DNA of 64,000 nucleotides from Actinomycetota bacterium (GTDB lineage Bacteria; Actinomycetota; Actinomycetes; Propionibacteriales; Propionibacteriaceae): assembly GCA_020161755.1 (NCBI GenBank), contig JAIUOS010000004.1, positions 1 through 64,000 on the forward strand. The letters are read 5' to 3'. Of the stretch, positions 24,336 through 38,352 are shown piece after piece (positions within the stretch are counted from its first letter, which is position 1; every line of letters begins with the position of its first letter). The notes below the pieces were generated by a model. The model made no database searches. It was not told where the DNA came from and worked only from the letters and a program-made list of their open reading frames with translations. The position numbers were made by a program, and so were the translations under genes.

Positions 24336-24374
24336 CGCCGCCGTGACCCGGGCCGACGCCCCGAGCGTGCTGCC

Positions 24375-24905
24375 TCAGTCGCGGATGTTGTTGGCGCGTC
24401 GCGCCTCGTACGAGTCGTACTTCGAGAGTGCGCACTCGTAGTGGTTCATGTCCTCGGAGGGGTTCGCCTCTTCGAAGATGACGATCCGGGTGTGCTCGGC
24501 GTTGGCCCACTTGTGGAACAACACCACATGAACCCCAGGGTCGACGAGGAAGTCGCCGGCAGCGAGGCTCGAGCGCAGGAGCGGGAAGGAGTAGGTTCGC
24601 GTGGCGAGTGCCGTCGTGTTGGGGCAGTTGAGGCCCGTAGGACCGAGCTTGAGAGCCATCGAGACAAAGCCGGAGCAGTCGCGGCGCCAGGAATAGGTAC
24701 CGTCCGGCCCCGTCGCAGTTCCGGTCTGGCTGTACTGAATGTTTCGGTTGTACCAGTTCCATGCCCGGTCAATGACGGCCGAACGATGAATCGGGTCATT
24801 GGGAGCGGCCACCGCCCGTGGAAGGGGACCCAACACCAGCCCCGCCGCCCCGAGCAGTCCGCCAGCGCCTGCCGAGGCCAGCAACTCGCGCCGATTGATT
24901 CCCAT
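24375..24905 (-). CDS. Tat-exported NlpC/P60-like (CHAP-type) hydrolase
   Basis: The 176-residue protein has a twin-arginine signal (MGINRRELLASAGAGGLLGA, cleavage near AVA-AP). A papain-like amidase domain follows, with the catalytic Cys in WRRDCSGFVSMAL and His in DPGVHVVLFHKW. It is expected to act on peptidoglycan peptides or a similar amide outside the cell. The Tat route implies folding before export. ATG 24905 follows GAAGGGAG. It is convergent with the GH2 gene (39-base gap). Confidence 0.75.
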   Translation of the reverse strand: MGINRRELLASAGAGGLLGAAGLVLGPLPRAVAAPNDPIHRSAVIDRAWNWYNRNIQYSQTGTATGPDGTYSWRRDCSGFVSMALKLGPTGLNCPNTTALATRTYSFPLLRSSLAAGDFLVDPGVHVVLFHKWANAEHTRIVIFEEANPSEDMNHYECALSKYDSYEARRANNIRD

Positions 24906-25057
24906 GTTGAAACTCCCTTCTGGTGTCCGTGCCGCCCGAATTTCCAGTCGGTTGTGCCGGTCGAAAATCGAACGGTCGTGGGCGATGATTGCCCTTATTG
25001 GAGACGCTATCGGGAGTTGTTGTCGGTGTTGGTGCGAATGCTCAACAAATAAATTAC

Positions 25058-25522
25058 CTATTCCTGGGTTCCCGGGTCCGGTAGCTGTTCTGAATCGACG
25101 TCTTCGACCCTCGACGCACGCAACACCTCCAGGTAGTGCGGGCTGTACATCAGTCCGAGGAGGTTGCCGAAGGGGTCGGCGACCACGGCTGTCACCCAGC
25201 CCTGATCGCCGCGCTCGGTGGCCGGTTCGAGCACGGTGGCACCCAGGGAGACCAGTCGTTCGACCGCTGCCGCCACGTCGTCCACGTGCCAGTACATGAC
25301 GGCGCCCGCGGGGCCCGCCCGATCGAGACCCTGGGGTCGGTAGGCGCTGCTGATCAGGCCGAGTTCGTGCTGGTAGTCGCCGATCCGGAACTCGACATAG
25401 GCCGGGTCTTCCAGGGATGGGTGGGCGAAGTACGGGTCGATCCCCAGGACCCGGCGGTACCAGTCGGTGGCGGACGGGACGTCGTCGACGAAGAAGTTGA
25501 TGGTCGTGAATCCGTATAACAC
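25058..25522 (-). CDS. VOC/glyoxalase-family protein
   Basis: This 154-residue single VOC unit has INFFVDDVPSATDWYRRVLG at the start, HELGLISSAYRP in the middle and VVADPFGNLLGLMYSPHY at the end, with two beta-alpha-beta modules. The family includes glyoxalases, dioxygenases and resistance proteins; the role here is unknown. GTG 25522 was chosen with AAGGAG seven bases upstream. Its promoter at 25573-25632 has the same architecture as those of the YciI-like, FAD-oxidase and DHFR-like genes. Confidence 0.8.
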   Translation of the reverse strand: MLYGFTTINFFVDDVPSATDWYRRVLGIDPYFAHPSLEDPAYVEFRIGDYQHELGLISSAYRPQGLDRAGPAGAVMYWHVDDVAAAVERLVSLGATVLEPATERGDQGWVTAVVADPFGNLLGLMYSPHYLEVLRASRVEDVDSEQLPDPGTQE

Positions 25523-25572
25523 GGCTGCTCCTTCCGGTAACGAGCGGAACGCCGAGGTCGGGCGTGACGTCC

Positions 25573-25632
25573 ACGCTAGGCGGAGAAGTCGCCGTGGGGC
25601 AGGGCCAAACCCGGCCGTCATCGTGGGGTCCA
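25573..25632 (-). promoter_or_regulatory. MocR-type promoter copy D, before the VOC gene
   Basis: On the minus strand: a TGGACC box (25632 inward), a TTGGCCCTGC box at 25608-25597, an 18-base gap, then -10 TAGCGT at 25578-25573. The same order and the same 18-base gap occur at 31448, 35019 and 36537. This copy is the most divergent. Confidence 0.6.
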
Positions 25633-25694
25633 AGTGACACACGAGTGGCCCGCGGTCGTTGGGTACTCGATGGGCGACGGCGCCTCGCGGCCAA

Positions 25695-26639
25695 TCAGCG
25701 CCCGCGGGCGAACACGTCACGCAGGAACCGGCTGGCCGCGTCGAGCGCCGCGTCCGCCTGGGGGGTGACCGCGGTCATCTGGACGAAGCCATGTGGCATC
25801 CCGAGGTAGCGCGCCGCGACCACCTCGACGCCGGCGTCCGCCGCCAGGGCTGCGTACCCCTCCCCCTCGTCCCTGAGCACGTCACACTCGCAGGACACCA
25901 GGAACATCGGCGGCATCGAAGCATCCGGCGTTGCCAGCACCCGGTCGAACCCCACCGCTCCCGCGCCGCCCAGAACCCCGTAGTGCCCGAGGAACCACTC
26001 CATCTCGTCGCGTTCCAGACCGAAGCCGGCGGCGAAGTGCCAGTAGGAGGCCGAATCCATCGACGCCGATACGACGGGGTAGAAGAGCACCTGGGCGACA
26101 AGACCGAGCTCGCGCGAGGCAGACGCGACGGCCGCTGCGGCGGCGAGGGTGGCCCCGGCCGAATCCCCGGCGACCGCGATCCGTCCGGCGTCGAGGCTGA
26201 GGTCGCCGGCATGGCGGACGAGCCAGTCGACGCTGTCGACGGCGTCCTGGTGGGCCGCGGGCCACGGGTGCTCCGGGGCCAGCCGGTAGCCGATCGACAC
26301 CACGAGGGCATCGGTGCGGACGGCCAGGTCGGAGCAGATCTGATCGGCCGAGTCCAAGTCGCAGAGCACGAAGCCGCCACCGTGGTACCAGACCAGGGCG
26401 GGCAGGACGCCGGCGGGCGCCGGCGGGCGGTACAGGCGTGCGGCGAGCGCGCGGCCCGGAAGATCGAGCGTCAGGTCCACCGTCTCGACGTTCCGGTCCA
26501 CCCGGCGTGTGCCGAGGTCCTGTCCCCGGGCGGACGCGGCTCGCGCCGCCTCCGGCTGGAGGGCAGCGAGCCCAAGGGCTCCAGCCTCAGCGCACGCCGC
26601 GAGGTGCCGAACGATCTCCGGCGTCAGTCGCGCCGTCAC
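25695..26639 (-). CDS. HSL-family alpha/beta hydrolase (acetyl-esterase-like)
   Basis: The 314-residue enzyme shows the hormone-sensitive-lipase family oxyanion motif WYHGGGFV, the nucleophile elbow GDSAGAT, the acid in SCECDVLRDEG and the His in GMPHGFVQM. It lacks a signal peptide and so acts in the cytoplasm, probably removing acyl groups from an imported compound. GTG 26639 overlaps the permease stop by four bases (GTGA), so it belongs to cassette C, hinting that the cargo is an acetylated or otherwise esterified sugar. Confidence 0.88.
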   Translation of the reverse strand: MTARLTPEIVRHLAACAEAGALGLAALQPEAARAASARGQDLGTRRVDRNVETVDLTLDLPGRALAARLYRPPAPAGVLPALVWYHGGGFVLCDLDSADQICSDLAVRTDALVVSIGYRLAPEHPWPAAHQDAVDSVDWLVRHAGDLSLDAGRIAVAGDSAGATLAAAAAVASASRELGLVAQVLFYPVVSASMDSASYWHFAAGFGLERDEMEWFLGHYGVLGGAGAVGFDRVLATPDASMPPMFLVSCECDVLRDEGEGYAALAADAGVEVVAARYLGMPHGFVQMTAVTPQADAALDAASRFLRDVFARGR

Positions 26640-27478
26640 GCCTTCACCGCCCCCTGGGTGAGGCCCGTGTTCCAGAAACGCTGGAGCAGCAGGAAGCCGG
26701 CGATGACTGGTACGACGGCGATCAGCGCGCCGACGAGAACGCTGGTCGCGAGCGTCGGGTCCTGGATGAACTGACCGCTCCAGTTGTAGAGCCCGAGCGT
26801 CACCGGGTAGAGGTCGGAGCTGTTGAGCATGATGAGCGGAAGCATGAAGTTGTTCCAGATCAACACGAACTGGAACAGGAAGATCGTGACCAGGCCGGGT
26901 CCCATCATCGGCAGGCCGATCAGGACGAACGTCCGGACGCCGCCCGCACCGTCCACGGAGGCGGCCTCGACGACCTCGTCCGGGACGGCTGCATCGATCG
27001 ACACCCTTGCCAGGTACACGGCCAGCGGGCTGACCACGCTGGGCAGCAGCACCGACCAGTAGGTGTTCGTCAGGCCGACCCGGCTGAACATCAGGAACAG
27101 CGGCAGGGCGAGGGCTGCCGGCGGAATCAGGACGCCGGCCAGGATCACGTTGAACAGTGCGTCGCGTCCGGGGAAGCGGTACTTGCTCAACGCGTACCCG
27201 ACAGCTGCGGCGAGGACGGTGCCGATGGCGGCCCCGATGCCGGCGTACAACATGCTGTTGACCAGCCACCGGCCGAACACTCCCGAGTCCCGGGCGAGGA
27301 GGTCCGCCACGTTGCTGAGGAAGTGATCGGAGATCGAGAACAGGCCGGAGTCCTGCACCAGCTCCCCCTGCGTCTTGGTCGCCGAGACCGCCAGCCACCA
27401 CAAGGGCAACACGAAGTAGGCGCACATCAGAACCAGAACGGTCGCGTTGGCCGGTTGGGCCCTGCGGAAGGTGGTCAT
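26636..27478 (-). CDS. Carbohydrate ABC transporter permease, MalG type (cassette C)
   Basis: This 280-residue permease has six helices and the EAA loop VEAASVDGAGGV...IGLPMM. It overlaps the upstream permease by four bases (ATGA) and the downstream esterase by four. FQFVLIWNNFMLPLIML is the conserved helix after the EAA loop. Confidence 0.92.
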   Translation of the reverse strand: MTTFRRAQPANATVLVLMCAYFVLPLWWLAVSATKTQGELVQDSGLFSISDHFLSNVADLLARDSGVFGRWLVNSMLYAGIGAAIGTVLAAAVGYALSKYRFPGRDALFNVILAGVLIPPAALALPLFLMFSRVGLTNTYWSVLLPSVVSPLAVYLARVSIDAAVPDEVVEAASVDGAGGVRTFVLIGLPMMGPGLVTIFLFQFVLIWNNFMLPLIMLNSSDLYPVTLGLYNWSGQFIQDPTLATSVLVGALIAVVPVIAGFLLLQRFWNTGLTQGAVKA

Positions 27479-28467
27479 GGCTTCGGGCTCCTTGTTGCCG
27501 CCCGCAGCAGCGCGAACGAGAAGACCGCGGTGACCACCGCGAGGAGCGTCGAGACCGCCGCAGAGTAGCTGTACCGGTTGGCCGCGGCTTCGCTGTAGGC
27601 GAGCATGTTCGGCGTCCAGACGCTCGAGATCTCGTTGGACAGGGTTCGCAGCGCCACGGGTTCGGTGAACAACTGCAGCGTCCCGATCAGGTTGAAGACC
27701 ACGCTCAGGACGATCGAGGGACGCAGCAGCGGCAACTTGATCGACCAGGCGATTCGGAGCGTGGTCGCCCCATCGATGCGCGCGCTCTCCAGCATTCCCG
27801 GGTCGATGGACGCCAGGCCGGAGGCGAAGATCAGGACGTTGAACCCGACGTAGGTCCACAGTGCGATGTTGCCCACCTGCCACACCACCGGCCAGGACAG
27901 TGGATCGACGTCCCAGCCGATCACCGCGGCGGCACCCACGAACGGGCTTGTCGTAGGCGCATACAGGAAGCCCCAGATCGTCGCGCCGATCACGGCGGGC
28001 ACCGCGTAGGGGGCAAAGACCGCCGCCCGGGCCAGCTTCGCGCCGATACGGTTCGGCCGGGCGTCGATGACCAGGGCGATCACGAGGCCGAGCAGCACGG
28101 TGAGGGTGGATGGCCCGATCGCGTACAGGCCGACGTTGATCAGGCTCTGCTGGAAGGCGGGGTCCGCCAGCACCTGCGCGTAGTTGCCGAGGCCGACGAA
28201 GACGTCCTCCGCAGGTCGATAGGCACCGCTCCGACGCAGGGCGAACAGACTCTGCCACAACGCATAGGCGATCGGCGCGACGTAGAACAGGGCGAACATG
28301 CCCAGAAAGGGCACGGTGAGCACGACGACCGTGCGCAGGTCGGCCCGTGTCCGGCGACTCCTTCGTGGCGCGCCGGGGGCATCGCCGCGAAGGCGGCGGG
28401 GGCCGGGATCACTGGCGGAGCCGACCGCGGTGGTCGGCTCCGCCAGGGATGAGGTGTGGTGTGGCAT
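27475..28467 (-). CDS. Carbohydrate ABC transporter permease, MalF type (cassette C)
   Basis: This 330-residue permease has the EAA loop LESARIDGATTL...KLPLLRP. The first 45 residues before TM1 are low-complexity (Ser, Pro, Arg), and their codons include both arms of a 15-bp perfect hairpin at 28412-28446. ATG 28467 lies four bases after the binding-protein stop. Confidence 0.92.
   Translation of the reverse strand: MPHHTSSLAEPTTAVGSASDPGPRRLRGDAPGAPRRSRRTRADLRTVVVLTVPFLGMFALFYVAPIAYALWQSLFALRRSGAYRPAEDVFVGLGNYAQVLADPAFQQSLINVGLYAIGPSTLTVLLGLVIALVIDARPNRIGAKLARAAVFAPYAVPAVIGATIWGFLYAPTTSPFVGAAAVIGWDVDPLSWPVVWQVGNIALWTYVGFNVLIFASGLASIDPGMLESARIDGATTLRIAWSIKLPLLRPSIVLSVVFNLIGTLQLFTEPVALRTLSNEISSVWTPNMLAYSEAAANRYSYSAAVSTLLAVVTAVFSFALLRAATRSPKP
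28412..28446 (-). promoter_or_regulatory. Stem-loop inside the permease 5' end (cassette C)
   Basis: CTGGCGGAGCCGACC (28412-28426) pairs perfectly with GGTCGGCTCCGCCAG (28432-28446), loop GCGGT. It begins 25 bases after the binding-protein stop and lies within codons 8-19 of the permease. Confidence 0.8.
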
Positions 28468-28471
28468 CAGG

Positions 28472-29842
28472 TCACTGGCTTACCGTGAAGCCGTCCTTCT
28501 GCATGGATGACACCACGGTCGTCTGCGCCTCGTCCAGGGCCGCCGACAACGAAGACTTCGCCGTCTTGGCGTTGGTGAACGCGTCCGTGACCGCCTTGTA
28601 GGTGTCGGTCATGGACGGACCCCACGTGAAGTCGGGCGTCACTTCGGACGCCGACCGGAAGACGTCGAAGATCAACTGGCCGCCGAAGAACGGATCCGGC
28701 TGGGTGAACAGCGGGTCGGCCAGGAGGGTGTTGGTGGTCGGGTAGATGCCGATCGCCTTGTTGAGGATCTTCAACGCGTCGGGGCTGGTCGCCATCCACA
28801 AGGCGAACTGTGCAGCTTCGCAGGGGTGCTTGGAGGTCTTGAACACCGAGAGCCCGCCACCGCCCCACGTGGCAGACACCTGCTCACCCTCCGCCCAGGT
28901 GGGCAGCGGAGCGACGGCCCACTTGCCCGAGGTGTCGGCGGCGGAGCCCTTGATCACACCGGCGCCCCAGACCGCTGTGGGCCAGGCCCAGATCTTGCCC
29001 TTGGCCAGCGCCGAGCTCCACGCCGGGGAGAAGGTCGCCAGGTCGGAGGCCGTCCCGGCGTCCAACATGCGCTGCCACAGGTCCGCCGTGGCCTTGCTGG
29101 CACTGTCGTTGACGCTGACCTTCCAGCCGTCGCCCTGCGTGGCGAACCACTGCGCCTTGTTCTGCGAGGCGAGCCCGGCGAACCAGTTGGCGTTGCCGTA
29201 ACCGTCGAAGTTCGCCAGTACCGCCGACGGGTCGGCCTGGTGGACCTTGGCAGCGGCCGCCTCGAACTCCGTCCAGGTGGTCGGCACGTCAATGCCGTGC
29301 TTGGTGAACAGGTCCTTGCGGTAGATCAGTGCCATCGGCCCGCCGCCGATGGGCACGGAGAACATGGCGCCGTCCGTCCCAAGTGAGACCGCCTTCTTCA
29401 CCGGCGCCACGAAGTCGGACTTCTGTGCGTCCGTGAAGGAACCCGACACGTCGGCGAGGTAGTCCTGGCTGCCGAACGCGGCGATGTTGTCGAACTCGAG
29501 GAAGCCGATGTCGGGTGCGGTGCCCGCCTTCACGGCGTTGAACATCTTCTGGTACCCCCCGGCGTTGCCGACCGGGATGTCGCTGTAGGTGACCTGGATG
29601 TCGGGATGACTGCTGTTCCACAGCTTCGCTGCGTCGGCGTAGCCGGCTCCCCACGACCAGTAGCTCAACTCCACCGGGGTGGACGAGGGCGAGCAGCCGC
29701 CCGCCGTCGCCGACTCCGACGCCAGCGACGTGGCGGACGGGGCCTGGGCCGAAGAACAACTGGCCAGCATCGCTGCCAGCCCCACAGCTACGAACGATGC
29801 CGCAACGCGCCGCGTGCCTCGACGGTGTGACCTCACTGTCAT
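28472..29842 (-). CDS. ABC sugar-binding lipoprotein (cassette C)
   Basis: This 456-residue family 1 solute-binding protein has a lipoprotein signal (GLAAMLASCSS). The mature protein contains VELSYWSWGAGYADAAKLWN and ALIYRKDLFTKHGIDVPTTW. It is the first gene of the cassette C importer operon, divergent from LacI with a perfect operator between them. Two extra Cys residues (TAGGCSPSS and SKHPCEAAQ) could form a disulfide in the exported protein. Confidence 0.92.
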   Translation of the reverse strand: MTVRSHRRGTRRVAASFVAVGLAAMLASCSSAQAPSATSLASESATAGGCSPSSTPVELSYWSWGAGYADAAKLWNSSHPDIQVTYSDIPVGNAGGYQKMFNAVKAGTAPDIGFLEFDNIAAFGSQDYLADVSGSFTDAQKSDFVAPVKKAVSLGTDGAMFSVPIGGGPMALIYRKDLFTKHGIDVPTTWTEFEAAAAKVHQADPSAVLANFDGYGNANWFAGLASQNKAQWFATQGDGWKVSVNDSASKATADLWQRMLDAGTASDLATFSPAWSSALAKGKIWAWPTAVWGAGVIKGSAADTSGKWAVAPLPTWAEGEQVSATWGGGGLSVFKTSKHPCEAAQFALWMATSPDALKILNKAIGIYPTTNTLLADPLFTQPDPFFGGQLIFDVFRSASEVTPDFTWGPSMTDTYKAVTDAFTNAKTAKSSLSAALDEAQTTVVSSMQKDGFTVSQ

Positions 29843-29860
29843 CCGAACACCTTCCCTCGG

Positions 29861-29876
29861 GTGGATACGTATCCAC
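29861..29876. promoter_or_regulatory. LacI operator of cassette C
   Basis: GTGGATACGTATCCAC is a perfect 16-bp palindrome with central CG, 19 bases upstream of the binding-protein start and about 90 bases before the LacI gene. Confidence 0.8.
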
Positions 29877-29952
29877 TTGTTGGGAGCAATCTACGACCGT
29901 TCCACGCCTCGATCAAGCGAATTCATGCTGCAATCGCTTCCAATCGCTCTGC

Positions 29953-29958
29953 TAGTCT
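29953..29958 (+). promoter_or_regulatory. -10 element of the cassette C LacI gene
   Basis: TAGTCT fits TAnnnT and ends six bases before ATG 29965. No ribosome binding site is visible, so the transcript is probably leaderless. Confidence 0.45.
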
Positions 29959-29964
29959 GTGGCC

Positions 29965-30987
29965 ATGGCGAGGACGGAGCGGGAGGGCACGAGCCGCGGA
30001 TTCGTCAGCCTCGCCGACGTCGCCCGGTTGGCAGGGGCCTCCCACTCCGCGGCGTCCAGGGCCGTCAACGGCCGCGTCGGCGTCCGGCCCGACGTCCGCG
30101 AGGCGGTGCTCGCTGCCGCCAAGGAGCTGGGTTACACCCCGAATCACAACGCACGCAACCTCGTGATGAAGCGGACCGGCCTGGTGGCCCTGGTGTTCTA
30201 CGACCCTGACCTCGTGGTGGGGACGACGCTGTTCTCCGATCTCGTGGCCAACGTGGTGGCCCGCCTCGACGACGCCGACTACCGGCCGGCCTTGATCCTT
30301 CCCGGCGAGCGCCGACTGGAACAGCTCGCCGCGACGATCGGCCCCGAGACCTACGACGGCGCATTGCTGATCGGCGGCCGCTCAGGCGATCCGTTGCTCA
30401 AGAGCCTCGTCCGCAGGAAACTCCCGACCGTGGTACTCGGCCGCCCCCTCGACGGGACAGAGGTGTCGTACGTCGACCTGGAGAACGTCTCGGCGTCACG
30501 GATGGCCACCAAGCACCTGCTCGATCGGGGCCGACGCCGGCTCATTCACATCGCGGGCCCCCACCAGGCCGCCTGGGGCGGCGACCGTGCGGCCGGCTTC
30601 GCCGCGGAGATCGCCGAGCACCCCGGTGCGACCGGACACGTCCGGGAATGCGTCTTCTCCGCCGCTGGTGGCTACGAGGGGGCGAGGGACGCCCTCGAAC
30701 AGTGGCCGGAATCCGACGGCCTGATCGTGGCCTCGGAGGCCCTGCTGTCGGGCGTCCTGCGCGCAGTCGCCGAATCCGGCCGATCCATCCCCGCCGACCT
30801 CGCGCTGGTCTCGTTCGACGACGGACCCCGGCTGGCCTTCGCGAACCCCCCGATCACGTCAGTGCGCCAGCCACTCGCGGAGATGGGCCAGGCCATGGCA
30901 CGCGTCCTGCTCGACACGATCGACAACCGCAGCGCCCGGCACACCCTGCACTACCCCGGCGAACTCGTCATCAGAGCCAGCAGCTGA
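29965..30987 (+). CDS. LacI-family regulator of cassette C
   Basis: The 340-residue protein has the HTH FVSLADVARLAGASHSAASR with an unusual Ala/Ser-His recognition helix, hinge HNARNLVMKRTG, and a sensor domain (LALVSFDDGPRLAFANPPIT). The recognition-helix difference from the other four LacI proteins fits its different operator (GTGGATACGTATCCAC). GTG 29959 is a possible earlier start; ATG 29965 fits a leaderless transcript. A long terminator palindrome follows. Confidence 0.92.
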   Translation: MARTEREGTSRGFVSLADVARLAGASHSAASRAVNGRVGVRPDVREAVLAAAKELGYTPNHNARNLVMKRTGLVALVFYDPDLVVGTTLFSDLVANVVARLDDADYRPALILPGERRLEQLAATIGPETYDGALLIGGRSGDPLLKSLVRRKLPTVVLGRPLDGTEVSYVDLENVSASRMATKHLLDRGRRRLIHIAGPHQAAWGGDRAAGFAAEIAEHPGATGHVRECVFSAAGGYEGARDALEQWPESDGLIVASEALLSGVLRAVAESGRSIPADLALVSFDDGPRLAFANPPITSVRQPLAEMGQAMARVLLDTIDNRSARHTLHYPGELVIRASS

Positions 30988-31021
30988 TGGGTGACCGCGG
31001 GTACCACCAGCGGTTCTGCGT

Positions 31022-31081
31022 CCCCCGACTTGTCAGAATCTGGGGACGCTCTAGCGTCCCCAGATTCTGACAAGTCGGGGG
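31022..31081. terminator. 60-bp near-perfect palindrome (bidirectional terminator)
   Basis: Arms of 29 bp, starting CCCCCGACTTGTCAGAATCT and ending in the exact complement, are separated by only two bases (CT). It lies between the convergent LacI and YciI-like genes. Such a symmetric element can terminate both transcripts and would extrude as a cruciform. Confidence 0.85.
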
Positions 31082-31089
31082 TCTCCGCG

Positions 31090-31416
31090 TCAGTCACCCA
31101 GCGGCCAGACCTCGATCACGCCATGGGCGACAGCGCAGGGGCTGGGGCTCACCATCGCGACCGCGTCCTCCAGGCTGTCCGCCTCGATCACCGCGAAGCC
31201 TGCGAGCGGCAGGTCTGAGGACAGGTAAGGCCCGCTCGTGACCCGGACGCCGGCGGCTTCTGGGTTACGCACCTGGACGGGCTCCCCGGCGACGCCGATC
31301 ACGGCGCCGGCGCGCAGTAGGTCCTTGTCGTGGGCGTGTGCGGCGTTCCGCACGGGTTCCGGGGTGCGGTCGTGGCCGGCCCGGTCGCCGTAGCCGATCG
31401 TCACAAAGGTGGCCAT
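31090..31416 (-). CDS. YciI-like (YCII domain) protein
   Basis: The 108-residue protein starts ATFVTIGYGDRAGHDRTPE and contains LLRAGAVIGVAGEPVQVR and SDLPLAGFAVIEADSLEDAV, the pattern of YCII/DGPF-type dimeric alpha/beta proteins. These are often encoded beside sigma factors or oxidoreductases; their function is poorly known. ATG 31416 follows GGAG. The gene is driven from the MocR-type promoter at 31448-31506. Confidence 0.8.
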   Translation of the reverse strand: MATFVTIGYGDRAGHDRTPEPVRNAAHAHDKDLLRAGAVIGVAGEPVQVRNPEAAGVRVTSGPYLSSDLPLAGFAVIEADSLEDAVAMVSPSPCAVAHGVIEVWPLGD

Positions 31417-31447
31417 GGTGTCTCCAATCTCGTTCGGGAAAGAACCC

Positions 31448-31506
31448 ACGCTAGGTCGCCCACCGCTTCATCGACAGGTCCATGCAAGACCCCTCCCAGC
31501 AGTCCA
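31448..31506 (-). promoter_or_regulatory. MocR-type promoter copy A, before the YciI-like gene
   Basis: On the minus strand: box TGGACTGCTGGGA (31506-31494), box ATGGACCTGTCGA (31483-31471) whose TGG starts 24 bases later, then 18 bases and -10 TAGCGT (31453-31448). The start codon is about 30 bases beyond. Confidence 0.75.
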
Positions 31507-31527
31507 TCGGTGCCAAGATCACCGACA

Positions 31528-32211
31528 TCATCCGCGCGGGGCAAGGAGTGAGCGAGCATCGATGCGGGCCAGCTTGTTGAGCTGGAACGTGGTCGGCGTG
31601 CCGCCGATCTCAACCCGGACGACGAGAGGCAGGGCCTCGGCGAAGGTGTCGAGGGCCGGTATCCAGCGACGCCCAGGGCTGACCAGGATGAGCAGGCCGT
31701 CGTGGTTGCCCATGGGCGCGAACTCGGGACCTGCGGACCCGAGTGGCCCAATGGCGAGTTGTTCGCTGACGACGCGGGTCGCTTCGGGCACGTCGACGGC
31801 GATGCCCACCTCGCTGATCGACAGCAGCGCAGGTACCGAGGATCGCGCGCGAGGGCGTTCCCGGCGGGCGATCAGCTCGAGCACCATCCGGTCTGGCCCA
31901 GTGAAATAGACAGAGCGCGAGTTCCAGCCCGGCGGGCCTTCGAACTCGGTCCGGCCGTCCGCATCCGAAAGCAACGGCATCCTGCCCACCAGCCAGTCGC
32001 GATGTTCGTCGAACTGGTCGGGTGGGATGTCGAACGCAAGGTGGTGCACGCCTTCGGAGGGCTGGCCGGGCAGGAGCACCAGCCGGCTCGCGCCGATGGC
32101 TACCTCGACCCGGTCCCCTTCCCAGTTCGTTGGTCGTTCCAACGCCTCGGCGAAGAAGCCGGCGGCAGCCCGTTGATCGGCGACAGTCAACTCGACCTCG
32201 GTGATGAACAC
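31528..32211 (-). CDS. VOC-family protein (two-domain)
   Basis: The 227-residue protein has a VOC module at each end: VFITEVELTVADQRAAAGFF with GVHHLAFDIPP and SVYFTGPDRMVLELIARR, then a weaker second half (LLSISEVGIAVDVPEATRVV). It resembles glyoxalase/dioxygenase-like proteins; no enzyme activity can be assigned. GTG 32211 was taken because the VOC fold begins there; TTG 32223 or ATG 32268 are possible. It is probably the third gene of the FAD-oxidase/methyltransferase operon. Confidence 0.75.
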   Translation of the reverse strand: MFITEVELTVADQRAAAGFFAEALERPTNWEGDRVEVAIGASRLVLLPGQPSEGVHHLAFDIPPDQFDEHRDWLVGRMPLLSDADGRTEFEGPPGWNSRSVYFTGPDRMVLELIARRERPRARSSVPALLSISEVGIAVDVPEATRVVSEQLAIGPLGSAGPEFAPMGNHDGLLILVSPGRRWIPALDTFAEALPLVVRVEIGGTPTTFQLNKLARIDARSLLAPRG

Positions 32212-32308
32212 CTGTGAAGTCAAGCTCCCGTGGTCGACGGGAACAAGGAGCCCACGCACATGTGCCACTCCGCGGGCGAGGCGACTGCGCGACCGTGATT
32301 GCAGCTGC

Positions 32309-33391
32309 TCAAGCCACCGCGCGTTTCGTGGCGATCACCACTCCGTTCGCCCCCGGCGCTTCGAACCAGACGGTCCGGATGTCGCTGAAGCCGATGTCGT
32401 GCAACCACCTTGTGTACTCGGCCGGCGTGTAGTTGCGGCCTTCGGTCTCGATGAGCATGTTGAGGCTCATCAACGCTGCGGGCGCGGGCCCGGTTCGCTC
32501 GTCGTTGACGAGCAGTTCGGCGATGATCACCCGCCCGCCGTCCGGGAGCGCGTCCCAGCACTTCGCGAGGATCTCTCGGCCGCGCTCCTCGGCCCAGTCG
32601 TGCAGGATCATGGACAGCAGAATGGTGTCGTGGCCCCCGGGCAGCCGTTCGTCGAGGAAGAAGTCCCCCGGCACCGCCACGATGCGCTCCGACAGGCCCG
32701 CCTGCGCGACCTTGCCCGTCGCGATCGGGGTGATCGCCGGTAGGTCGAAGACGGTGGCGGTCATCCTCGGATGGAGCCGACACAACTCAGTATCGAACGC
32801 GCCCGATCCTCCGCCCGCGTCGAGCAGCCTGTCAGTGTCGCCGAGGTCGACGGCGTCAGCCAGGGAACGAGCCGTCAGCGTCGAGATCGAGTGCATCGCC
32901 TCCCAGAACACCGAGAGCAACTCGGGGTCTTCGCCGGCGAAGAGCGACTCCTGCCGGTCCGGGTCCCAGGTGGTGGGGCGGTTCGTGCGGATCGCCTCGG
33001 TCAGCTTGTCCCATCCCGGATACAGGCGCTGGTCGAGCATCTGCACCCACCCCCCGAAGTAGGTGTCCTTGCCGCGGACCAGGAACGCCTCCGCGACGGG
33101 GCTGTTGACATAGTGGCCGTCGCGCTTGGAGAGCAGGCCCAGCGCTGCCGCGCCGGTCAGCAGCATCTCCGCCGGCCGTGTGGCGATGTGGAGGTGTTCG
33201 GCAAGCTCCTCGCTCGTTGTGCCCGGGCTTCCGGACAGCCAGGAGAACAGGTCGAGCTCGTGGGCTGCGGCGAGCGTCTTGAACGCCCAGAAGCCGGTTG
33301 ACAACTGCATCAGCGGCAAAGGCGACAGGGCCTGCGCCGTGTCGTTCGGGACGGTCGTCCCGGCCTGGTTCTGCAGTACTTTCGCGGTCAT
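32309..33391 (-). CDS. SAM-dependent O-methyltransferase (Methyltransf_2 type)
   Basis: The 360-residue protein has an N-terminal helical dimerisation domain (about 25-110) and a Rossmann methyltransferase domain. The SAM motif is LLDAGGGSGAF near residue 185, followed by ATVFDLPAI and the catalytic-type ILLSMILHDWAEERG. This class methylates hydroxyl groups of aromatic or polyketide small molecules. ATG 33391 follows GAAGG. It lies 68 bases after the FAD oxidase and likely shares its promoter. Confidence 0.88.
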   Translation of the reverse strand: MTAKVLQNQAGTTVPNDTAQALSPLPLMQLSTGFWAFKTLAAAHELDLFSWLSGSPGTTSEELAEHLHIATRPAEMLLTGAAALGLLSKRDGHYVNSPVAEAFLVRGKDTYFGGWVQMLDQRLYPGWDKLTEAIRTNRPTTWDPDRQESLFAGEDPELLSVFWEAMHSISTLTARSLADAVDLGDTDRLLDAGGGSGAFDTELCRLHPRMTATVFDLPAITPIATGKVAQAGLSERIVAVPGDFFLDERLPGGHDTILLSMILHDWAEERGREILAKCWDALPDGGRVIIAELLVNDERTGPAPAALMSLNMLIETEGRNYTPAEYTRWLHDIGFSDIRTVWFEAPGANGVVIATKRAVA

Positions 33392-33459
33392 GGTGTGCCT
33401 TCTGTGTGAGTCCTGGTGGGGCGTCGCCGGCCCGCTCGGGCCGCCGAGGATTGCTGTCG

Positions 33460-34827
33460 TCAGAGGGGCGGTACGGGGTGGTTGCTCCGGATCAGGTCGT
33501 GTGGGTCGTAAGCGGCCTTGACCTCGCGCAGCCGCGCCCACGTCGCCGCATCGAAGAAGGAGCTGACGTCGCTCGGCTGCTCGGCGAAGTTGAGGTACAT
33601 GCCCTCTGGACGCCATGGCGACACCGCTTCGAGGAGGGCAGACACCGCCGCGCGAACCGGCGGGACGGCCGGCGGCACGGGCGTCACCCCGATGGCGAAG
33701 CCCAGGAACGCTCCGGGCAGGCCGTCGATCGCGCCGTCACCCCCACCCGGGGTGAGGGCACCGCCCAGGTGGCGCAGGTCCACGGTGAGGAGCGGCGAGT
33801 CCACCCCCGGCCCGGCCACGGAGAGGACCGCCTCGATGGCCCCGGCGTCCAGCTCGGCCTGGAGCCAACCGTCCGCATGGATCGGTACCGGAGCCGGCGG
33901 GTCCATGTTGAGTTGGTCGAGCTGTTCCACCGGGATCATCGCCATCGTGTCATCGGCGGGTCCGAGAGCCCGCAGCGGGGCCAGCAGGTCGTCGGCGGCG
34001 ATCGGGTCGAGCGTGGTGGCTACCTCGACCACGGAGAAGGCCTTGCCAGACAGCTCGGGTGGCAGTTCCGGGATCTCGGGGAAGCGGATGAGCCGGCCGA
34101 GCGACGTCACCTCGTCGGGCACCGTGCCCGTCCAGCGCGCCCACGCATTCATGACCTCGCGGGCACGTTCGAGCGGGAAGAACAGCGCACCCGCGTACAC
34201 CTCTCTGATCGGGAACAGGGCGAACTCGATCGCGGTGACCACGGCGAAGCTGCCGCCACCGCCGCGTAGTGCCCAGAAGAGATCGGGATGATGCTCGGCT
34301 TCCACCCCGCGCACCTCGGCGTCGGCCGTGACGACCTCGAACGCGCGGACGTGGTTGAGCGCCAGCCCGTGGGAGCGGGCCAGCCAGCTCACCCCGCCGC
34401 CGAGGGTGTAGCCCGCGACGCCGACATCCCCGGACGAACCGGCCAGGGCGGCCAGCCCGTGTTCGGCCGCCGCCGACGTGACGTCGGCCCACTGGGCCCC
34501 GCCCTCTACCAGCGCGACCCGTCTGGACGGATCGATCCTGACCCCTCGTAGTTCCGACAGCCGCAGCAGGATGGTGCCGGTGAGGTCGCCCATCGGCGAG
34601 GCGTTGTGGCCGGTCGACTGCGCGGCAACCCGGAGCCCGGCTGCTCCGCCCACGCGTAGGACCGTCTGGACGTCGCGGACAGACGCGGCGGTGACGACCG
34701 CTACCGGTTGCTGGTCGACAGCGAGGTTCCAGGCCTGTCGGGCCTCGTCCCACCCCGGATCTCCGGGACCGGTCAGGTTCCCTTCGAGATCTCTGGCGAG
34801 AACCTGGATGGCGTCGTGGATCGACAT
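33460..34827 (-). CDS. FAD-linked oxidase (berberine-bridge-enzyme-like)
   Basis: The 455-residue protein has the PCMH-type FAD domain (VAVVTAASVRDVQTVLR, RVAAQSTGHNASPMGDL, GSSGDVGVAGYTLGGGVSWL) and the C-terminal BBE segment (YLNFAEQPSDVSSFF, LREVKAAYDPHDLIRSNHPV). The His in STGHN is the usual covalent FAD attachment residue; no Cys for a second bond is seen in that region. Such enzymes oxidise alcohols, sugars or natural-product intermediates. It has no signal peptide. ATG 34827 follows AAGGAG. Confidence 0.88.
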   Translation of the reverse strand: MSIHDAIQVLARDLEGNLTGPGDPGWDEARQAWNLAVDQQPVAVVTAASVRDVQTVLRVGGAAGLRVAAQSTGHNASPMGDLTGTILLRLSELRGVRIDPSRRVALVEGGAQWADVTSAAAEHGLAALAGSSGDVGVAGYTLGGGVSWLARSHGLALNHVRAFEVVTADAEVRGVEAEHHPDLFWALRGGGGSFAVVTAIEFALFPIREVYAGALFFPLERAREVMNAWARWTGTVPDEVTSLGRLIRFPEIPELPPELSGKAFSVVEVATTLDPIAADDLLAPLRALGPADDTMAMIPVEQLDQLNMDPPAPVPIHADGWLQAELDAGAIEAVLSVAGPGVDSPLLTVDLRHLGGALTPGGGDGAIDGLPGAFLGFAIGVTPVPPAVPPVRAAVSALLEAVSPWRPEGMYLNFAEQPSDVSSFFDAATWARLREVKAAYDPHDLIRSNHPVPPL

Positions 34828-34841
34828 CGGTTGTGCTCCTT

Positions 34842-34883
34842 CTGTGTCGGGACTGTCGCGTCCTGTGTCGGGGCTGTCGCGTC
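34842..34883. repeat. Tandem 21-base duplication in the FAD-oxidase leader
   Basis: Two adjacent 21-base units (34842-34862 and 34863-34883), both starting CTGTGTCGGG, differ at one base. They lie between the promoter at 35019 and the ribosome binding site, so they would be in the 5' untranslated RNA. Confidence 0.7.
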
Positions 34884-35018
34884 GCCCGGGAGCGCCGCGA
34901 GGCAACGGAACAAGACCTCGCAAGAGACGTCCGGAGCCCCGAATTCCTTGGCCCTCCGGCTGAAAACCCGGTCATCGATGCCGGCTTGTGAGGGCCCGTC
35001 CCAGGTCGGGAACGGCCC

Positions 35019-35077
35019 ACGCTAGGCCGACGATGGCCTGCCCGACAGGTCCATTTCGCACCTTTCCCACCACTCCA
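35019..35077 (-). promoter_or_regulatory. MocR-type promoter copy B, between FAD oxidase and MocR genes
   Basis: Boxes TGGAGTGGTGGGA (35077-35065) and ATGGACCTGTCG (35054-35043) are 24 bases apart start to start, then 18 bases to -10 TAGCGT (35024-35019), pointing toward the FAD oxidase. The divergent MocR gene starts at 35106, so the same boxes may also autoregulate it. Confidence 0.75.
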
Positions 35078-35105
35078 ATCGCCGCCGATCGGGTAGGACT
35101 GTTCC

Positions 35106-36527
35106 ATGGAACTGTTCATCGATCCGGCCGACGAGCGAGGGCTCACCGTGCAGCTGTACGACCAGGTGCGCGAGGCGATCCTGGCCGGCCGGATCGGTCC
35201 GGGTGACCGGCTGGACTCCACCAGGCGAGTCGCTGCCGGCCTGCGGATCGCGCGCTCGACCGTGGCCGAGGCGTACTACCGGCTCGGTGCGGAGGGCTAC
35301 ATCGTCGGACGGGCCGGTGGCGGCAGTGTGGTCGGCCCGGTACCGGCCGTCGCTCCGGACGGGCCCCGGCGCACCAGCGCTCGCCTGCCACCGGTACCGG
35401 CGGTGGGCGCGATCCGTCCCTACGGGCAGCAGCAGGGGCAGACGGCCCGGTACGACTTCCGGCCCGGCTCCCTGGACCCGGCGCTGTTCCCCACTGCCGA
35501 CTGGCGGCGTTGCATGCTGCCCGCGCTCGATCACCCGGCCGGCTCCTACGGCGATCCGGCGGGCAGCCCGGCCCTGCGGGAAGAGCTCGCCCACTGGGTG
35601 GCGCGATCCCGCGGCGTCCTGGCGACCGCCGAAGAGGTGTTCGTCACCGCCGGGGCCGGCCACGCCGTCGATCTGATCGCGCGGGCGCTTGTCCCGCCCG
35701 GGTCGGTAGTGGCTGTGGAGGAACCCGGCTACCCGCCGGTGGTCGAGTTGCTCCACAGCCACGGGTTCACCGTCATCGGAGTGCCGGTGGACGCCGAAGG
35801 GATCGTCGTGGACGCGATCCCCTCGCAGGCCCGGCTGGTCTATGTCACGCCGTCACACCAGTACCCGCTCGGTATGCCGATGTCGCGACGCCGTCGCCTG
35901 GAACTGCTCGCCTGGGCCAACCGCGCCGCCTGCCCGATCGTCGAGGACGACTACGACAGCGAGTTCCGCCACACCGCACGTCCGCTGGAGCCACTCCAGC
36001 GTCTCGACGCCGAGGGCTGGGTGCTCTACGTCGGCACCTTCAGCAAGTCCTTGTCGCCGGCCCTCCGGTTGGGCTTCCTCGTGGCCCCACTCACCGTCAT
36101 CCCCGCGCTGCGTGCGTTGCGGCAGGTGATCGACTGGAACCCGCCGCAGGCGACCCAGTCGGCGCTGGCCGCGATGATCCGCGACGGCCACCTCGACCGG
36201 CACCTGCGCCGCTGCCGAGGCGTGTACGCCCGACGACGCCGACTCCTCTGGGACGGGCTGGGAGCCACGCTGCCGGCTGGCTACACCAGACTTCCCGCTG
36301 TCGCCGGCCTGCACATCGCCGTCGTCGCGCCCGGGTTGGGTGGCGAACCTCTCGCCCACACGGACGTCCGCTACAGCGAACTGGGCCGCTGCTACGCGGC
36401 CGAGCCGGTCCGGGACGGGTTCCTGCTCGGCTTTGCCGGCATTCCAACGGCCCTGCTGCCGGAGGCGATCAAGGCCTTCAGTGGCCTCCTCCGGCACTCC
36501 GCCCCGGAGTTACGCGGACAACGATGA
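35106..36527 (+). CDS. MocR/PdxR-type PLP-dependent GntR regulator
   Basis: The 473-residue protein fuses a GntR winged HTH (VQLYDQVREAILAGRIGPGD, STRRVAAGLRIARSTVAEAY; residues 10-80) to a fold-type I aminotransferase-like domain from about 115. That domain carries AGAGHAVDLIARAL, VEEPGYPP, IVEDDYDSEFR and the PLP lysine in GTFSKSLSPALRLGF. Such proteins sense amines or PLP-linked ligands and bind direct repeats. Boxes of that kind occur at four nearby promoters, so it is their likely regulator. ATG 35106 has no clear ribosome binding site. Confidence 0.9.
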   Translation: MELFIDPADERGLTVQLYDQVREAILAGRIGPGDRLDSTRRVAAGLRIARSTVAEAYYRLGAEGYIVGRAGGGSVVGPVPAVAPDGPRRTSARLPPVPAVGAIRPYGQQQGQTARYDFRPGSLDPALFPTADWRRCMLPALDHPAGSYGDPAGSPALREELAHWVARSRGVLATAEEVFVTAGAGHAVDLIARALVPPGSVVAVEEPGYPPVVELLHSHGFTVIGVPVDAEGIVVDAIPSQARLVYVTPSHQYPLGMPMSRRRRLELLAWANRAACPIVEDDYDSEFRHTARPLEPLQRLDAEGWVLYVGTFSKSLSPALRLGFLVAPLTVIPALRALRQVIDWNPPQATQSALAAMIRDGHLDRHLRRCRGVYARRRRLLWDGLGATLPAGYTRLPAVAGLHIAVVAPGLGGEPLAHTDVRYSELGRCYAAEPVRDGFLLGFAGIPTALLPEAIKAFSGLLRHSAPELRGQR

Positions 36528-36536
36528 CTCCGAGTT

Positions 36537-36595
36537 TGGACTGGTGAAAACCCGCCTTCTTGGCCCTGTCGAGCAGGACAATCGCCACCTAGCGT
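36537..36595 (+). promoter_or_regulatory. MocR-type promoter copy C, before the DHFR-like gene
   Basis: Boxes TGGACTGGTGAAA (36537-36549) and TTGGCCCTGTCGA (36560-36572), 24 bases apart by their TGG, then 18 bases to -10 TAGCGT (36590-36595). The ATG at 36602 is six bases later, so the message is probably leaderless. Confidence 0.75.
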
Positions 36596-36601
36596 CGGGG
36601 C

Positions 36602-37174
36602 ATGGGAATCGTGATCTTCGACATCAGCACCTCTCTGGACGGCTACATCACCGCCGCCCACCAGACCGCGGAGGTCCCGATGGGGCCAGGCGGCGACGCC
36701 GTCCACGACTGGGCGTTCGGCAGCGACGAGGCCAACGCCACCTACCTGCAAACGGCCGGGGCGAGCACCGGAGCGGTGATCTGCGGACGCACCACGTACG
36801 ACACCTCGCTGCCCTGGTGGGAGGCGAACGGGCCCACCGGAGAGCAACGCAAACCCGTGATCGTCCTCACCCACCGCGCGCCGGCAGATGCACCGTCCGG
36901 CGGCGTCTACACCTTCGTCACCGGCGGTCTCCAGGCAGCCCTCGATGCCGCGCGCGAGGCCGCCGGCGACGCTGACGTCACGATCATGGGCGGCGCCGAC
37001 ATCGGCCGCCAGTTCCTCACCGCCGGGGTGGTCGACGAACTCTCGCTCCACGTCGCTCCGCTGCTCTTCGGCGGCGGCACGCGCCTCTTCGGCGACCTGA
37101 CCGACCATGTGAAGCTCACGCTCGTCGACTGCCTTCCGACCCCCACCGCCATCCATCTGCGCTACCGAACGTGA
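36602..37174 (+). CDS. Dihydrofolate-reductase-like (RibD C-terminal domain) protein
   Basis: The 190-residue protein has the RibD_C/DHFR fold (IVIFDISTSLDGYITAA, GAVICGRTTYDT, KPVIVLTHRAP, VTIMGGADIGRQFL, LHVAPLLFGGGTRLF). It is likely an NADPH-dependent reductase, but its substrate is unknown; members are common beside actinobacterial MocR and YciI-like genes. Its start lies six bases after a -10 element. Confidence 0.85.
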   Translation: MGIVIFDISTSLDGYITAAHQTAEVPMGPGGDAVHDWAFGSDEANATYLQTAGASTGAVICGRTTYDTSLPWWEANGPTGEQRKPVIVLTHRAPADAPSGGVYTFVTGGLQAALDAAREAAGDADVTIMGGADIGRQFLTAGVVDELSLHVAPLLFGGGTRLFGDLTDHVKLTLVDCLPTPTAIHLRYRT

Positions 37175-37203
37175 AGCCGGAGCCCGCACGGGCCAGCCTC
37201 TGC

Positions 37204-37228
37204 TAGCCTCCCAGAAAAGGTTCTCTGA
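37204..37228 (+). promoter_or_regulatory. Promoter and operator 1 of cassette D
   Basis: -10 TAGCCT (37204-37209) is followed one base later by CCAGAAAAGGTTCTCTGA (37211-37228), a degenerate copy of the operators at 39042 and 40259. Confidence 0.6.
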
Positions 37229-37254
37229 CGTCGAGGCCGAGAGGAAGTGCTGGA

Positions 37255-38352
37255 GTGCCTCCACCCAACGGCGCAGCGGGTCCGCACGGTTCGACGGCGC
37301 AGGAAGGACCGGGCGGACGCACGCTCGACCGGTTCGGCATCAGGAAGCTCCACGACTCGGTGGGCAAGGAGTGGTTCAGCGCCTGGGACGCCGGGCGCGC
37401 CCGCACCTACATCGACGCCGGCGACCAGTCCGTCGATCCCGAACTCGCCCTCGCGAACGGTGACCACACCGTGCGGATCTTCGGCGCCGACGGCCCTCGC
37501 GCCGGCCAACTCATGATGTTCGGCGCCTTCCCCCGCATCTACGTGCGCAAGAACGAGTCGTTCGCCATCCCGCCGGAGATCGCCCCGAACGATCGGTGGA
37601 ACAACGTGGAGGTCACGTTCTACGCCTACAGCACCGGGGACTCCGGCGTCCCGTGGGCCGGCCTCGAGGCGGTCGTGAAGACGAACCACTGGCCTGACAG
37701 CTGGCAGTGCACGACCGCGGGCTACGGGGCGCGGATGCTGTTCGACGGACGCATCGACTTCGAGAAGGAGCTGTACCACTCCCCCAATACCAACTTCCAG
37801 GCCGGCGCCATCTCCCGTCACTGGACGGCGGCCGACGCCAGCTTGGCCGGCGAGTTGCCGCTGAACCGCTGGATCGGGTTCAAGTTCGTCGCCCGCAACA
37901 TCGACGCGGGCAACGACGGAGACTGGCGAAGCGACACGAGAGTGCGGCTGGAGTTGTACAAGGACATGTCGATCGGGGACGTTGTCAGCCCGGCACCGCC
38001 GGCGAACGGCGGCAACTGGGAGCTGGTCACGGCGTACACCGACGACGGCGACCTCAGCGCTGGCGTCCCGTGCGCCCACACCTGTTCCCCCGACGACGAC
38101 CCCTACGGCCCCGCCGGCAGAGCGCTGACCTGGCCCAATTACTCGATCTACCTGCGCACCGACGGGCTCACGCCAGACATCCCGCAGTACTACACCTGGT
38201 TCAGCGTCCGCGAAGTGGCGCCCGTTCGGGATGGGGCGGACGCCGCCGCCGCGGAATCCAGGACGGCCGTCAGGCGCGCGAGCGCGACCGGTAGCGGCGG
38301 AATCGACGGGTACCACGCCCGCTCCCACTCCAACGACAGCCACCCGTCGTAG
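37255..38352 (+). CDS. Unrecognised protein, possible beta-jelly-roll, cassette D
   Basis: The 365-residue product has many aromatic beta-strand-like segments (RWNNVEVTFYAYS, NRWIGFKFVARN, YYTWFSVREVA) that suggest a jelly-roll like those of polysaccharide lyases or carbohydrate-binding modules. No family is recognised with confidence and no signal peptide is seen. GTG 37255 has AGGAAG eight bases upstream. The operator just upstream ties it to the cassette D LacI. Its last 163 bases overlap the 3' end of the convergent isomerase gene, so about 54 C-terminal residues (Ala/Arg/Ser-rich) are encoded opposite that gene. Confidence 0.65.
   Translation: MPPPNGAAGPHGSTAQEGPGGRTLDRFGIRKLHDSVGKEWFSAWDAGRARTYIDAGDQSVDPELALANGDHTVRIFGADGPRAGQLMMFGAFPRIYVRKNESFAIPPEIAPNDRWNNVEVTFYAYSTGDSGVPWAGLEAVVKTNHWPDSWQCTTAGYGARMLFDGRIDFEKELYHSPNTNFQAGAISRHWTAADASLAGELPLNRWIGFKFVARNIDAGNDGDWRSDTRVRLELYKDMSIGDVVSPAPPANGGNWELVTAYTDDGDLSAGVPCAHTCSPDDDPYGPAGRALTWPNYSIYLRTDGLTPDIPQYYTWFSVREVAPVRDGADAAAAESRTAVRRASATGSGGIDGYHARSHSNDSHPS

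Follow-up and report, generated by a model that had tools for sequence, protein, structure and literature searches.

Four promoter-like sites sharing one layout around a MocR-type gene in a Propionibacteriaceae genome: a predicted local regulon

Do repeated promoter-like sequences around a single regulatory gene mark the targets of its product? The question is raised by a 64,000-nucleotide stretch of DNA from an Actinomycetota bacterium of the Propionibacteriaceae (assembly GCA_020161755.1, contig JAIUOS010000004.1, positions 1 to 64,000), hereafter called the window. Four copies of one two-box promoter layout lie in this window around a gene, mocR, that encodes a MocR-type transcription factor. 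We read the four promoters as a local regulon of this factor, at a probability of about 0.87, and predict that it binds and probably activates them. We favor this reading because the sites are restricted to the mocR locus, because they travel with mocR in a second species of the genus and because the same layout is enriched beside distant MocR genes. These observations support the MocR regulon that had been proposed in a first-pass annotation of this DNA.

The four sites were recovered by direct reading at the positions and on the strands given in that annotation, with the same order of boxes (Table 1). Read toward the downstream gene, and measured on the 64-kb window, their consensus is TGGAS-N19/20-TGGMCCTG-N21-TAGCGT. 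Box 1 is TGGAC at sites 1, 2 and 4 and TGGAG at site 3. The start of box 1 precedes that of box 2 by 24 bases at sites 2-4 and by 25 at site 1, where the gap between the boxes is 20 rather than 19. From box 2, TGG(A/C)CCTG, to the -10 element TAGCGT the spacer is 21 bases at all four sites. The expected geometry, two boxes about 24 bases apart and then TAGCGT, is therefore present, except that the last gap had been given as 18 bases; a genome scan with this value returned 0 matches because the real gap is 21. Site 3 carries an additional inverted box, GGCCA, and a third box of this inverted type is perhaps present at both sites 3 and 4. None was seen by eye at site 1. All four sites are intergenic and, as had been claimed, point into genes for VOC, YciI-like, flavin adenine dinucleotide (FAD) oxidase and RibD_C proteins, starting at 25522, 31416, 34827 and 36602. 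Gene starts, as well as gene calls in the loci fetched from other genomes, were assigned by eye and by the judgement of the analyst.

The element is specific to this locus. Box 2 followed by N21 and TAGCGT occurs 4 times in the window, exactly at the four sites, and the full pattern has 0 occurrences in 300 windows simulated with an order-3 Markov model. The assembly of the same genome comprises 61 contigs and 4.08 Mb and is 95.94% complete. In it, the full pattern with up to 3 mismatches is found at 11 places, namely the four sites and 7 others, while the backwards pattern used as a control is found at 29. Three sites match without mismatch. Site 1 scores 3 mismatches because its inter-box gap is one base longer, and all 7 other places are also at 3. 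Searching the two boxes alone with at most 1 mismatch gave 9 places (sites 2, 3 and 4 at 0, six others at 1), with 23 places in the control. Since matches outside the locus are fewer than in the controls, the repeated element is confined to the neighborhood of mocR and is not a genome-wide sigma-factor signature. Recurrence at many unrelated promoters, named in the first-pass annotation as the outcome that would speak for such a signature, was not seen in this genome scan.

The product of mocR has the domain organization of the MocR subfamily. Pfam assigns a GntR domain to residues 14-76 (4.8e-11) and an Aminotran_1_2 domain to residues 143-394 (2.1e-24). Residues 13-456 of 473 align to structure 7pq9 (1.3e-54) and residues 14-405 to GabR 4n0b (2.7e-45). 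The lysine of a TFSKSL motif aligns with the lysine of FSKSL in 7pq9 and GabR, which we take to be the Schiff-base lysine of pyridoxal 5'-phosphate (PLP). As in other MocR proteins, an N-terminal GntR domain is fused to an aminotransferase-like fold, the lysine is kept and TGG-type boxes are found near the gene. The protein also scores 389.5 bits with the NCBIfam model of PdxR, NF052282 (cut-off 320), and 7pq9, its nearest relative of solved structure, is presumably itself a PdxR, the record being named simply "PLP-dependent aminotransferase family protein". PdxR has the same domain make-up as the window protein and controls pdxST, whereas a search for pdxS (PF01680) in the 95.94% complete assembly found no match; the same search was positive in 10 of 14 control genomes. 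Vitamin B6 families are likewise absent from the Pfam and NCBIfam matches of the target genes. For these two reasons the PdxR assignment was dropped despite the model score. A second MocR gene, 39% identical, is found elsewhere in the genome (G000:C6 138474), with a TIM-barrel gene and a major facilitator superfamily (MFS) gene as its neighbors by eye.

Are the sites conserved with mocR? In a sample of 30 genomes of the genus, the window's own included, a single other genome (G725) has a MocR match at the cut-off of E <=1e-80. The two proteins are 80% identical (78% by tblastn). Four sites, one of them weak, surround the G725 gene (Table 1), and the G725 genome contains six further matches at <=3 mismatches against 29 for the backwards control. 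In at least 7 of the 8 sites of the two species, box 1 keeps TGGA with a G three positions further along, box 2 keeps TGG, a free base and CCTG, and the -10 region keeps the preceding CC, TAGCGT (in one site TACCGT) and, two positions beyond, a G. Site 3 and its positional counterpart in G725 agree at 48 of 60 bases. Site 2 is identical to the yciI site of G725 at 41 of 60 bases and to site 3 likewise at 41 of 60 (41 of 59 over the core), so that site 2 is probably a copy of site 3. The simplest history would be that yciI originally lay directly behind the site divergent from mocR, as in G725, that the operon for the FAD oxidase, a methyltransferase and a VOC-like protein was then inserted between them, and that yciI kept a copied operator. 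At the level of the family, 16 of the 117 genomes of a sample drawn before the genus sample have a MocR match at 1e-60 or better, the window's genome included. Apart from the window's own gene, the nearest is that of G041, 59-60% identical.

More distant loci were fetched by means of the MocR protein alone, and the best 80 of at least 587 relatives were analyzed. In the two-box score, which has a maximum of 12, the fourth position may be any base except G, and close to the end of box 2 either pyrimidine is accepted. Boxes with a -10 element, placed divergently upstream of mocR, reach a score of at least 11 in 23 of the 80 loci and in 13 of 10,546 equally sized control windows. With the score lowered to 10 the counts are 33/80 and 83/10,546, and for the boxes alone, at a score of 11, they are 41/80 and 428/10,546. 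In sites chosen by the boxes alone, the distance from the first base of box 2 to a TA...T is exactly 29 bases in 20 of 41 cases as compared to 1 of 226 controls, and a -10 element at +28 to +30 in 23 of 41 as compared to 7 of 226. An inverted CCA is found at +15 to +17 in 18 of these 41 sites, a count made at MocR loci without a control. The genes behind the boxes vary in the distant relatives: amino acid permease, carboxymuconolactone decarboxylase family, PLP decarboxylase, MFS and cupin. The examples with the PLP decarboxylase (L034), the cupin (L043) and one permease (L112) are without a -10 element at the fixed spacing.

Several points weigh against the interpretation as a MocR regulon. 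At the stricter threshold 57 of the 80 MocR loci are without a site, many of the 80 are from Pseudomonas and are not independent, and the scoring rule was loosened after first looks at the loci, so that nominal P values should not be read literally. The G725 assembly, with 400 contigs and a contamination of 9, is fragmented, and the last of the four G725 sites is weak. Orthologous targets in both species are YciI and RibD_C only; the FAD oxidases are only remotely related, and the G725 stretch lacks the methyltransferase. The G041 site lies before an AAA-ATPase-like gene and not before the methyltransferase or RibD_C gene of that locus. Finally, in locus L086 a methyltransferase 36% identical to that of the window stands beside MocR with boxes and without a site that includes the -10 element. 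The contrast between MocR loci and controls is nonetheless large, even with the loosened score and the non-independent loci.

Table 1. Coordinates of the putative operator/promoter sites, of mocR and its proposed targets in the window, and of the sites on contig C174 of G725.
Feature	Coordinates	Strand	Description
Site 1, putative operator/promoter	25573..25632	-	box 1 25632-25628, box 2 25607-25600, -10 TAGCGT 25578-25573
Site 2, putative operator/promoter	31448..31506	-	box 1 31506-31502, box 2 31482-31475, -10 31453-31448
Site 3, putative operator/promoter	35019..35077	-	box 1 35077-35073, box 2 35053-35046, -10 35024-35019
Site 4, putative operator/promoter	36537..36595	+	box 1 36537-36541, box 2 36561-36568, -10 36590-36595
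mocR	35106..36527	+	GntR winged helix and class I aminotransferase-like domain
VOC (glyoxalase/bleomycin-resistance fold) protein, site 1 target	25058..25522	-	Pfam Glyoxalase 8.9e-14
YciI-like protein, site 2 target	31090..31416	-	Pfam YCII 1.6e-4, 22.5 bits, below cut-off 24
FAD-dependent oxidase, first gene of presumed site 3 operon	33460..34827	-	FAD_binding_4 4.4e-22
COMT-type S-adenosylmethionine (SAM) methyltransferase, second gene of presumed site 3 operon	32309..33391	-	Methyltransf_2 6.2e-42
VOC-like protein (246 amino acids), third gene of presumed site 3 operon	31528..32268	-	name by eye
RibD_C-type (dihydrofolate-reductase-like) reductase, site 4 target	36602..37174	+	RibD_C 2e-20
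G725 site	C174 27995-28053		1 mismatch; divergent from mocR, before yciI (80% identical)
G725 site	C174 29507-29565		0 mismatches; between mocR and RibD_C gene (85% identical)
G725 site	C174 31862-31920		1 mismatch; before DUF4440/SnoaL-like gene and second RibD_C (36%)
G725 site, weaker	C174 33309-33367		3 mismatches; before BBE-type FAD oxidase (35% over part)

How could such sites work? The MocR protein would bind the two head-to-tail TGGAC-type boxes, and maybe the third, inverted GGCCA-type box at sites 3 and 4. Box 2 covers positions -29 to -22 relative to the -10 element, so its end meets the start of the -35 region. The -35 hexamer is poor, with at most 3 of 6 matches in 7 of the 8 sites and 4 of 6 in the eighth, for spacings of 16-19 bases. 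The promoters would then be of the sigma-70 type, with TAGCGT as -10 element and a weak -35 of their own, and MocR bound just upstream would recruit RNA polymerase. Four units would be switched on in this way: the VOC gene, the YciI-like gene, the FAD oxidase-methyltransferase-VOC-like operon and the RibD_C reductase gene. Because box 2 abuts a poor -35, MocR, once bound, is likely to activate its targets. Site 3 is divergent from mocR and ends 29 bases before its start, which makes self-repression of mocR via this site probable. PMC5320631 describes MocR factors as often divergent from the genes that they activate and often auto-repressing. At site 4, the arrangement TAGCGT-N6-ATG, with an identical six-base distance in the G725 counterpart, suggests a leaderless transcript. 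Our guess for the effector is PLP itself, or an amine or aldehyde reacting at the PLP lysine. As for the purpose of the regulon, the protein families lead us to guess at the transformation or detoxification of a redox-active aromatic compound or natural product.

The evidence also bears on what else might have produced four such promoters. Promoters of the alternative sigma factors ECF41 and ECF42, of the extracytoplasmic function (ECF) type, combine a TGTC-type -35 with a CGTC-type -10 at fixed spacing, and VOC and RibD_C genes accompany these factors. A TGTC does stand 23 bases before the -10 element in sites 2, 3 and 4 and in the yciI site of G725, and one target is YciI-like, a YCII-domain gene being the conserved neighbor of ECF42 genes (PMC8999054). 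However, TGTC is at -23 in 4 of the 8 sites only, being missing in site 1 and two G725 sites and displaced in one, and the -10 element reads CGTG in 6 of 8 sites and CGTC in 2. Box 1 would be some 65 bases upstream of the expected start, beyond the reach of a sigma factor. The layout moreover follows MocR across phyla, and the window's genome has no above-control matches elsewhere. Pfam matches of the ten window proteins scanned include no sigma-factor family, although no search aimed at sigma factors was made. With a locus-restricted pattern and inconsistent TGTC and CGTC motifs, we rejected the sigma-factor signature as very improbable. We give even less credit to the idea that one sequence was recently copied to give all four promoters, which would then be uninformative on a common regulator. 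Sites 2 and 3 are indeed alike, site 2 probably deriving from site 3, and sites 2, 3 and 4 somewhat resemble each other in their spacers (8-10 of 18 bases between the boxes, 11-13 of 21 before the -10 element). Site 1, however, is alike only in the boxes and the -10 element (5 of 18 bases in the inter-box spacer, 5-9 of 21 in the spacer that follows box 2), and the flanks of the four sites are at about chance identity, with 10-24 of 60 bases upstream and 14-30 of 74 downstream. The orthologous sites of G725 retain the boxes, and distant MocR loci share the layout. Copies without function were discarded on the basis of the flanks and of the boxes kept in G725.

The direction of regulation deserves separate consideration, as MocR might bind the four sites and repress its targets until an inducer releases it. 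EnuR, a MocR/GabR-type protein, is such a repressor, with predicted operators that overlap the promoter core (PMC8739950), and here box 2 and the possible third box are at, or just downstream of, the -35 position. On the other hand, the promoters lack a good -35, and the distance from box 2 to the -10 element is mostly 29 bases, as expected for an activator that touches polymerase. The characterized MocR factors PdxR, GabR and TauR activate their targets (PMC5320631). Repression of the four units is accordingly judged unlikely, and we retain activation by MocR as the preferred mechanism.

How does this system compare with known ones? MocR operators in general resemble the sites described here, with a direct pair of boxes to which an inverted one may be added, a TGT/TGG core and frequent redox targets (PMC5320631). 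The direct-direct-inverted layout is the commonest, in 32% of regulons (Suvorova and Rodionov 2016, PMC5320631). The motif is therefore of a known kind, in agreement with the direct-repeat binding invoked for MocR proteins in the first-pass annotation. Similar in its boxes is TauR of Rhodobacter capsulatus, an activator on the direct repeats CTGGACYTAA (PMC5320631). The TGGACY part is partly shared with the boxes here and the TAA tail is not; TauR targets taurine utilization, whereas no taurine family is among the matches of the target genes here, of which the VOC-like gene has no match at all. MpaR of Pseudomonas aeruginosa is, like the window protein, of the MocR type with one motif at neighboring promoters. 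This motif stands 61-62 bp upstream of the start sites of three operons nearby. MpaR differs in its putative binding site, the short palindrome ATCTGAT, in its targets ccoN4, PA14_10540-mpaR and nirA, and in its signal, cyanide (PMC10790758). In PdxQ regulons a GloA-family lyase is named, so a glyoxalase-type MocR target is already known (PMC5320631).

The present target set under a MocR was not found in our literature searches, which reached the main text of PMC5320631, and searches for MocR with O-methyltransferase or methyltransferase gave no relevant result. Words starting with methyltransferase, glyoxalase or dihydrofolate are absent from this main text, and the supplementary tables of the paper may hold this group. 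The regulon had been called undescribed. This holds for the target set in print, as far as the searches reach, and does not hold for its parts: local MocR regulons, TGGAC direct repeats, redox targets and a GloA-family lyase are known. The locus offers a testable regulator, operator and promoter for YciI, RibD_C, VOC, McrA/EncM-like oxidase and RedM-like methyltransferase genes. To our knowledge, members of these families seldom have a known inducer. The identity of the MocR effector would point to the substrate of the target enzymes, and in other bacteria MocR targets could be recognized in the sequence by a -10 element, which tends to stand 29 bases from the first base of box 2.

What the targets do can be approached from their nearest relatives. 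The FAD oxidase is closest to the mitomycin radical oxidase 9r43 (7.2e-76) and to EncM (2.1e-56) among solved structures, with GH at the equivalent position. The mitomycin enzyme McrA is described as an oxidase that regenerates the quinone of mitomycin from its hydroquinone (PMC9570651). The FAD oxidase operon expected behind site 3 is present and additionally contains a methyltransferase, whose nearest solved structure is RedM 8tji (2.5e-60). According to PMC10784701, RedM makes the dimethylpyrrolinium of reductasporine, and the characterized members of its family are O-methyltransferases for 78% and N-methyltransferases for 9%. The third protein of the operon has no match in Pfam or NCBIfam. 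The site 4 target, previously named DHFR-like after dihydrofolate reductase, has a related fold and is better named a RibD_C-type reductase. The VOC gene behind site 1 has a GTG start with GGAAGGAG just before it.

The methyltransferase is rare: a phylum sample of 396 genomes has it in 4 (E <=1e-95) and an order sample of 293 genomes in 6 (1e-90), the window's genome included in both. Homologs that are 67-73% identical accompany MocR in G041, G107 and Bradyrhizobium jicamae. A site directly precedes the methyltransferase in the latter two, and the G041 locus also has a RibD_C reductase 60% identical to that of the window. Among ten methyltransferase loci, sites are present in 3 of 3 with a MocR match and in 0 of 7 without a MocR match in the fetched stretches. 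A single origin of the pairing was considered and is unsupported, as the four paired MocR proteins need 3 changes on the tree and do not form one clade. Shuffling gave a mean of 3.9 changes, with 28 of 500 shuffles as low as 3; this tree contains four pairs, L086 having been left out as too short. G107 has two MocR genes, 43-44% identical to that of the window. One (L113) is beside the methyltransferase and has boxes and a -10 element; the other (L112), beside the amino acid permease, has two boxes and no -10 element at the fixed spacing. In three of the seven loci without a MocR match, methyltransferase homologs adjoin MerR (L143), LysR (L144, which L145 resembles by eye) and TetR (L123) regulators, as if the methyltransferase were a commonly induced enzyme under changing regulators. 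In G675 a RibD_C gene (L142 8546-9124) adjoins the methyltransferase, with no MocR match in the 19.9 kb fetched, which suggests that the two enzymes act together.

These data can be assembled into a broader picture that we put forward tentatively and consider doubtful as a whole. MocR might be the hub of a growing, modular regulon for small-molecule transformation, in which operons are captured by landing behind its operator or by copying it. The PLP pocket might sense an amine or aldehyde substrate, which the RedM-like methyltransferase and the McrA-like oxidase would transform, and RedM-like methyltransferases might have been recruited to MocR more than once.

Some minor features of the window can be added. 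The leader that would follow site 3 (34828-35018, about 190 bases) would carry imperfectly repeated GACTGTCGCGTC-type units. In Rfam, no known RNA element matched at the gathering threshold in region 24000-38500, which includes this leader. Between sites 1 and 2 lies a LacI-type regulator gene with an operon for ATP-binding cassette (ABC) sugar transport (26636-30987, by eye), without such an operator. Two further LacI-type genes (21360 and 39177) adjoin other putative sugar genes, also by eye.

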